Below are positions 49,441 through 52,303 of a stretch of 64,000 bases of DNA, piece by piece. The notes below the pieces were generated by a model. The model worked only from the letters and a program-made list of their open reading frames with translations, was not told where the DNA came from and did not search any database. The stretch comes from an uncultured Chlorobiaceae bacterium (lineage in GTDB: Bacteria; Bacteroidota; Chlorobiia; Chlorobiales; Chlorobiaceae), in assembly GCA_903824045.1 (NCBI GenBank), contig CAIJVD010000037.1:62001-126000 (forward strand), written 5' to 3'. The stretch's first letter is position 1. Every line of letters begins with the position of its first letter. Made by a program: the position numbers and the translations under genes.

Positions 49441-50763
49441 TCAGGCCGTTTTCTTTTCTATTGTCAATTCGCCGCCGGAAACATCGATGGCGACCTCGTC
49501 CCCCTCCTGCACCTCGCCCGAAAGGATCTTTTCGGAAACCCGGTTGGTTATTTTTCGCTGCATGACCCGTTTAAGCGGCCGTGCGCCGAATGCGGGATCG
49601 AACCCGGCATTGGCAATCCACTCAAGTGCGCCGTCGGAAATACTCAGGTTGATATGCTGGCGCATTGCCATTTCGCCGATACGGTTGAACTGGATCAGCA
49701 CAATTTTCTTCAGCTCTTCACGAGAGAGCGGCGTAAAGAGGATGATTTCGTCGATACGGTTCAGAAACTCGGGGCGTACCTGCTGCTTCAACAGCCCGAA
49801 GAGCTTCTCCTGGAGAGAGGAAAGCACCGCATCCCTCTTTGAACCGTCCAGCTTTGCCATCTCGGCCTGTATCAGCTGCGCGCCGATGTTGCTGGTCATG
49901 ATGATGATGGTGTTCTTGAAGTTGACCGTGTGCCCCTTGCTGTCGGTCAGACGGCCATCGTCAAGGATCTGCAGAAGAATGTTGAACACATCGGGGTGCG
50001 CCTTTTCAATTTCGTCGAGCAGCACCACGGCAAAAGGCTTCCTTCTGACCGCTTCGGTCAGCTGGCCCCCCTCCTCATAGCCTATATAACCCGGAGGCGC
50101 TCCGACGAGCCGGCTGACGTTGTGTGATTCCATGTACTCGCTCATGTCTATGCGGATCATCGCATCCTCGTCATCGAAGAGGTAATCGGCAAGCGCCCGG
50201 GCAAGTTCGGTCTTGCCGACGCCGGTCGGCCCAAGAAAGATGAATGAGCCGATAGGCCGCTTTTCGTCGCCCATGCCTGCGCGCGAGCGCTTGACCGCAT
50301 CGCTCACCGCCGTGACGGCTTCATCCTGGCCGATCACCCTGCTGTGCAGCTCCTTTTCGATGAAGAGCAGTTTCTGGCGCTCCGACTGGAGCATCTTGCT
50401 GACCGGAATGCCGGTCCATCTCGAAACGATGTCGGCAATGTCCTCGGCATCGATCTCCTCCTTCATGATCAAATCGCCCGAGGCTTTCTTCTCTTCAATT
50501 TTCAGCCTGTTCTCCTCAACTTCCCGTTCTATCTGTGCGATTTTGCCGTATCGGATCTCGGCTACCTTGCCGTAGTCACCCTGGCGTTCTGCCTCTTCGG
50601 CCTCGACACGAAGCCGTTCAATTTCGGCTTTCAGGCTTCGTGCCGACTGAATGAGCGCCTTCTCGCCATCCCAGCGGGCCTTTATGATGGTCTGCTCCTC
50701 TACAAGATCAGCGAGCTGTTTCTCTATATCTGCCAACCTTTGTTTTGTATCGGCCGTGCTCAT
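49441..50763 (-). CDS. clpB: C-terminal half-type ClpB ATPase (M-domain plus second AAA+ domain only)
   Basis: Starts inside the M-domain coiled coil; [33 protein letters not shown] Walker A; no N-domain or NBD1 upstream. Confidence 0.9.
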
Positions 50764-50816: not shown

Positions 50817-51713
50817 ATGCTTAATGATTCAATGTCACAACGGGCCGTTACTTTAAGCCCTAAAAATATAACGGGTAACAACGTGCAAAAGTTCTCGATC
50901 GGCTCTATCCAGGTTCCAGACGACAGCTTCCCGCTTATTATTGCCGGTCCCTGCGTTATCGAAAGCAGGGCAATGGCCATCGAGACGGCCGAAGAGCTCC
51001 AGAAGATAAGCCGCTCTGAAGGGGTTCGTTTCATTTTCAAGGGCTCCTACCGGAAGGCAAACCGGACCTCCGGCGCTTCATTCACCGGTATCGGCGATAT
51101 CGAGGCGCTTGAGGTGCTTGCCGAGATCCGCCAGACCTACGGCATGCCGGTCGTTACCGATGTGCATGAAACCAAAGAGATTCTCCTTGCCTCCCGGTAC
51201 GTCGACGTTCTGCAGATTCCGGCTTTTCTCTGCCGTCAGACCGAGCTTCTGGTTGCCGCCGGCGAAAGCGGCCTCTGTGTCAACATCAAGAAGGGGCAGT
51301 TTATGGCTCCCGAGGATATGGCGCTTGCTGCAGTCAAGGTGCAGCAGACCGGCAACAGCAGAATCATGCTGACCGAACGGGGCTCCAGCTTCGGTTACCA
51401 CAACCTTGTGGTCGATTTCAGGGGGCTTGCCAAAATGGCTGAGGCAGGATATCCCGTTCTCTACGACGCCACCCACAGCCTTCAGCTTCCCGGAGCCGGC
51501 CAGGGCGTTTCGGGGGGTGAGCGGGAGTATATGATTCCCCTTGCCAGGGCGGCCGTTGCTGCCGGGGTGAACGGTCTGTTTTTTGAGGTTCATCCGGACC
51601 CTTCCAAAGCACTTTCGGATTCGGCTACACAGGTAGCACTCTCTGATTTTGGCGCTATCGTCATGCAGCTTCTGCACCTCTACCGGTGCGTGCACTCTCT
51701 TCAATCACTCTAA
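50817..51713 (+). CDS. kdsA: 2-dehydro-3-deoxyphosphooctonate aldolase (KDO-8-P synthase)
   Basis: [42 protein letters not shown]; exact start among nearby ATGs uncertain. Confidence 0.96.
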
Positions 51714-52303
51714 AACCCCACACTATTTTGGCAGGTTTTCAGTATTTCGGGATGGAGCCTTCTCAGGCGGACCCATCCTCAAGGGTGGAGCAGGCCCTCA
51801 AAGCTGTCCGGGCGCTCCTCTTTCCTGTTGACGGCGTTCTGAACGGTGGCCGCATAACCTTCGACAGCCGGGGCGGCGAGCTCTCTTCTCTCTCGGTCAG
51901 GGATGCGGTTGCCATAAGGGAGGCCGCTCGTCAGGGGCTTCGCATCGCCATTGTTTCCGGAAGGGATGCCGAGGTCTACCGCCCGCTGCTCGAAGAGCTG
52001 GGCGTGGAGGATCTCTATCTCTCGTCGGGCGATCCGCTTCAGGCCTATGAGGCATTTCGCGAGGCCCATGAATTGACCGACGACGAGTGCGCCTATATCG
52101 GGGATGATATCGGAGATATTGCGGTGCTCGAAAAGGTCGGGTTTCCTGCTACCCCTATCGACGGCGCCGATTATCTCAGAAACCGTGTGGGTTATATCTC
52201 CGGATATGAGGGGGGGAAGGGTTGCGTCAGGGAGATTGTCGAGCTCATTCTCATGCAACAGGGCAAGTGGCCCTATATTGATCGCCCCGAAACGGAGGAG
52301 TGA
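51686..52303 (+). CDS. KdsC-like HAD family protein with substituted catalytic residues; start probably ATG 51752 downstream of kdsA stop
   Basis: Overall KdsC layout ([78 protein letters not shown]) but motif I is LLFPVDGVL. Confidence 0.8.

Follow-up and report, generated by a model that had tools for sequence, protein, structure and literature searches.

A KdsC-family protein lacking the HAD nucleophile is retained beside kdsA in Chlorobiaceae

Can a green sulfur bacterium that makes KDO manage without a catalytic nucleophile in the KdsC-like protein encoded just behind its KDO-8-phosphate synthase? This question is raised by the window analysed here, a stretch of 64,000 nucleotides from an uncultured Chlorobiaceae bacterium. 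In it, a convincing kdsA (374 bits against NF003543, cut-off 242; 354 bits against TIGR01362, cut-off 314) is followed by a gene, here called A, that the initial annotation had read as a KdsC-like protein without the residues needed for hydrolysis (Table 1). KDO is present in the LPS of Chlorobaculum tepidum (PMC12285230), and the genome studied here carries kdsB (TIGR00466, above cut-off), a kdsD-family gene and a waaA-family gene, so some enzyme has to remove the phosphate from KDO-8-P.

Table 1 Coordinates of the features discussed, within the window except for copy B, which is placed by genome and contig
Feature	Location	Strand	Basis
kdsA, KDO-8-phosphate synthase	50889..51713	+	NF003543 and TIGR01362; ORF open from 50817
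A, KdsC-family protein without HAD nucleophile (start probable)	51728..52303	+	TIGR01670, Foldseek, conserved upstream TTG/GTG
Codon 25 of A, CCT (Pro), where motif I has its nucleophile Asp	51824..51826	+	Alignment with solved KdsC proteins and relatives
Codon 95 of A, CCG (Pro), where motif III has its Lys	52034..52036	+	Alignment with solved KdsC proteins and relatives
Copy B, KDN-9-P-phosphatase-like KdsC-family member	G000:C1:30266-30793	-	One other KdsC-family match in the genome

The product of A passes the KdsC model TIGR01670 with 130.5 bits (cut-off 106.95), with a Chlorobaculum orthologue falling just under the same cut-off at 106.6. Its AlphaFold model (pLDDT 88.4, pTM 0.85) was compared with known structures, as the initial annotation had proposed, and the best PDB match found by Foldseek was E. 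coli KdsC (2r8z, TM 0.84/0.86). On this model we are confident that A is a KdsC-family protein with a predicted KdsC fold. The reading frame is open over 51686..52303 on the plus strand. The initial annotation read it from the ATG at 51752; the coding sequence probably starts instead at the TTG at 51728, because an upstream in-frame TTG (sometimes GTG) and the pattern x-(G/S)-F-Q-(Y/F)-F-G-M that follows it are conserved across the A family. Several orthologues from elsewhere in the order have an ATG at the matching position (MEFFG, MDLMG).

In the Chlorobiaceae loci read, kdsA lies a few tens of bases 5′ of A. Upstream of kdsA in the window, a 440-amino-acid ORF on the minus strand (49441-50763), transcribed away from kdsA, matches the C-terminal half of ClpB only (AAA_2, ClpB_D2-small). 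Two loci from other genomes have unusual frames. At L018:619-2055 (genome G082), kdsA and A form one 479-amino-acid open frame with no stop between them; the final kdsA residues are unmatched, leaving a frame slip or an assembly error possible, and the two halves aligned poorly. At L043:1041-1879, in the single-contig genome G016, kdsA matches as two pieces in different frames, broken near residue 180.

HAD phosphatases catalyse through the Asp of motif I. In A, the stretch CTCCTCTTTCCTGTTGACGGC, from 51816, translates as LLFPVDG, and its proline aligns on that Asp; a second proline occupies the place of the motif III Lys, where alignment with solved KdsC proteins and their relatives agrees with the earlier alignment by eye. 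The remaining catalytic features are retained, namely Asp27, the second Asp of the DxD motif, Ser69 of motif II and GDDIGD of motif IV (residues 117-122). The motif readings of the initial annotation, both the two replacements and the retention of motifs II and IV, were thus accurate.

Orthologues retaining the Asp, which would have pointed to a sequencing error at codon 25, were looked for among the Chlorobiaceae. None was found: all 56 orthologues read lack the nucleophile, and this common loss rules out such an error. Likewise, the motif III Lys is missing from 56 of 56. Conservation of the proline substitutions themselves, which the initial annotation had wished to see checked, held in part, with Asp and Lys gone throughout but Pro at the nucleophile position in only 47 of the 56 (8 Ser, 1 Ala). 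The position is Pro in 42 of 42 Chlorobium sequences and mixed among the 14 from Chlorobaculum (5 Pro, 8 Ser, 1 Ala). Most of the Chlorobaculum proteins read have also lost the motif II Ser/Thr, and their motif IV Gly drifts as well.

The loss extends beyond the family. Of the 12 orthologues read from the order outside Chlorobiaceae, 11 carry another residue at the nucleophile position, Thr in family f2 (2/2) and Asn (4), Ser (3), Thr (1) or Val (1) in family f4, whereas the motif III Lys is kept in all 12. The exception is the genome G088, the single one in the order with the nucleophile Asp and with every other motif of A intact. Our survey of KdsC homologues covered Bacteroidota, and both Asp and Lys were kept in 64 of 64 homologues outside the order (Bacteroidia or Ignavibacteria-type). 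Because the nucleophile is replaced nearly throughout the order and Lys loss is confined to Chlorobiaceae, the order of losses, as read from these alignments, is nucleophile first, then Lys, then drift of motifs II and IV in Chlorobaculum. Taken together, the sequence comparisons strongly support a loss of catalysis in A.

Might this stepwise erosion, running from the nucleophile through Lys to the changes in motifs II and IV in Chlorobaculum, mark A as a pseudogene in the course of decay and eventual loss? We regard this as most improbable. The frame is open in every locus read, and A is present in 83 of 86 Chlorobiaceae genomes; as the other three also lack kdsA, their assemblies probably do not cover the region. 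Over 216 non-independent pairs, dN/dS has a median of 0.10 for A and of 0.07 for kdsA of the same loci, so A is under strong purifying selection and the protein is being maintained. Many residues close to the motifs do not vary, and those invariant in 56 of 56 orthologues are Asp27, Gly28, Val29, Arg50, Asp51, Arg71, Asp118, Asp119, Tyr148, Gly154, Gly155, Gly157, Cys158, Arg160 and Trp173. The same constraint could be taken to mean that A still works on KDO-8-P as a phosphatase, weakly or by another mechanism, and the retention of Asp27, Ser69, Arg71 and motif IV, the place behind kdsA and a search of the source genome that gave no plain second KdsC would all suit an active enzyme. Yet an active A is improbable, if less so than a decaying one, given how HAD phosphatases work and given a nucleophile position that has drifted to Pro, Ser, Ala, Thr, Asn or Val, the pattern to be expected of a residue no longer in use, in proteins that in Chlorobiaceae have shed the motif III Lys and in most Chlorobaculum read the motif II Ser/Thr too.

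If A does not hydrolyse KDO-8-P, another enzyme would have to, and the initial annotation had predicted a true phosphatase elsewhere. An intact family member, copy B, was indeed found, although it is not a plain KdsC. Asp25 and Lys95 are intact in all 29 copies of B read, and of the 98 genomes of the class 93 have the gene, the exceptions being G088 and four incomplete assemblies. Its best model is that of KDN-9-P phosphatase (NF058599, 150.3 bits, below the cut-off of 180) rather than KdsC (TIGR01670, 113 bits), and its best solved relative is BT1713 (3e81), to which it aligns with the Glu of TGE and the Lys of RAEKL, the very places altered in the BT1713 variant structures 4hgq and 4hgr. About 100 bases downstream on the same strand lies a NeuB-type gene (PF03102, 257.8 bits; both genes within L092:1795-3426, that is, G000:C1:29297-30793). 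It encodes 289 amino acids with the NeuB domain only and no SAF domain (Pfam), is 73-90% identical across nearly the whole class and, between families, is better conserved than kdsA. Model scores, BT1713-type residues and this neighbour together weaken the case for B as a plain KdsC. Elsewhere in the genome, the stretch marked by locus L122 (around G000:C3:47026-47604) and G000:C3:43801-44607 holds a further PF02348-family cytidylyltransferase and a frame resembling UDP-GlcNAc 2-epimerase. A second match to the NeuB family lies close by, and the whole has the look of another, distinct cluster for nonulosonic acid.

These properties of B leave room for a reading in which A is non-catalytic, B serves the NeuB-like pathway only and an unrelated or promiscuous phosphatase hydrolyses KDO-8-P. 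The stronger match of B to the KDN-9-P phosphatase model, its kinship with BT1713 and its NeuB-like neighbour would favour this, as would the tolerance of E. coli for loss of kdsC, and we give it an appreciable, though clearly minor, chance. What speaks for B is that KDO-8-P and KDN-9-P phosphatases reportedly overlap in specificity, and that the single genome with an intact A, G088, lacks both B and the NeuB-like gene. This absence fits a takeover by B, albeit in one MAG (420 contigs, 97% complete, 3% contaminated) whose place in the order is unsettled. Since B resembles a KDN-9-P phosphatase, its use of KDO-8-P is something we infer, and other phosphatases could act; on present evidence a takeover of KDO-8-P hydrolysis by B is probable.

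On balance we favour, with somewhat better than even confidence, an account in which A is an ancestral KDO-8-P phosphatase that lost catalysis across the order and was retained for a non-catalytic role, with hydrolysis carried out by another enzyme, most likely B. In the A gene tree, the proteins form one clade (100/99) beside Bacteroidia KdsC, and because intact homologues in other Bacteroidota also adjoin kdsA, on its 3′ side, the simplest reading of A is an ancestral kdsC that has stayed at its original operon place. The kdsC of the kdsA–kdsC operon would thus have lost its hydrolytic chemistry within the green sulfur bacterial order while KDO-8-P came to be hydrolysed by the enzyme encoded beside the NeuB-like synthase. 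A may still assemble like KdsC, as a tetramer whose shared pockets are sealed by the GGxG loop together with the C-terminal tail; the lowest entropy in A falls in residues 141-160, the GGxG loop region. In such a state it could bind KDO or KDO-8-P, or else a partner protein, with no hydrolysis, and serve the KDO branch as a scaffold or regulator. A structural or regulatory role of this kind is plausible, and the linkage of the two genes would make KdsA the likeliest partner. The gene is detached from kdsA in genera g7 and g8 of the order and in G088, however, and in g7 and g8 the nucleophile is still missing, which weakens the idea of KdsA as an obligatory partner. The pseudo-phosphatase kept in the KDO operon, as initially proposed, therefore holds as a conserved, nucleophile-less protein beside kdsA under purifying selection; its non-catalytic role is what we infer.

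A bolder version, which we advance only tentatively, would see a switch of the whole order from a KDO-8-P phosphatase to a non-hydrolysing sensor or scaffold for KDO or KDO-8-P that controls KdsA, following takeover by the KDN-9-P-phosphatase-like enzyme and possibly with the nucleophile lost several times independently or with A reactivated in G088. In a tree built from topA, argS and kdsA, G088 falls within family f4 and a basal position is rejected (p 0.02). The A gene tree does not reject a grouping of G088 with f4 (p 0.35) or a basal position for it (p 0.43), and its rejection of G088 with g7 and g8 is weak (p 0.04). Taken together, the trees are compatible both with a single loss followed by a regain and with several losses that were independent of one another.

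A-type proteins pass the curated KdsC cut-off, so automatic annotation would likely name them KDO-8-P phosphatase, a name that their sequence contradicts. A literature search, incomplete in coverage, found no account of an inactive KdsC. If the favoured account is true, green sulfur bacteria would run a core pathway of the outer membrane with a pseudo-phosphatase that they have kept and another enzyme standing in for it. The order offers a graded series, from intact through nucleophile lost and Lys lost to further motifs lost, in which the change from enzyme to non-enzyme is testable, and the series includes culturable species such as Chlorobaculum tepidum.

Among known systems, A most resembles the KdsC/YrbI KDO-8-P phosphatases (TIGR01670; E. 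coli 2r8e and 3i6b, Bacteroides 4hgn), with which it shares fold, length, motifs II and IV, the C-terminal GGxG-C-R with its tail and the place beside kdsA, and from which it differs in the missing nucleophile Asp and, in Chlorobiaceae, the missing motif III Lys. A KdsC-family protein can serve as a subunit of another enzyme, as in the delta subunit of phenylphosphate carboxylase, but A matches that model (TIGR02726) weakly, at 74.7 bits, far under the cut-off of 282, and belongs to a different pathway. The KDN-9-P phosphatase BT1713 is the nearest solved relative of B, although B scores below the cut-off of the model. A itself has Arg at the position of the BT1713-type Glu. Finally, the C-domain of vertebrate CMP-sialic acid synthetase is a HAD sugar-phosphatase homologue in which no phosphatase activity has been detected; it forms a tetramer and has been described as a platform for oligomerisation (PMC8636478). 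This domain (3ewi) matches A by sequence with 65 bits and offers, by analogy only, a precedent for A as a scaffold; it is a fused domain in animals, whereas A, known from its sequence and predicted fold, is a free-standing bacterial protein encoded behind kdsA.
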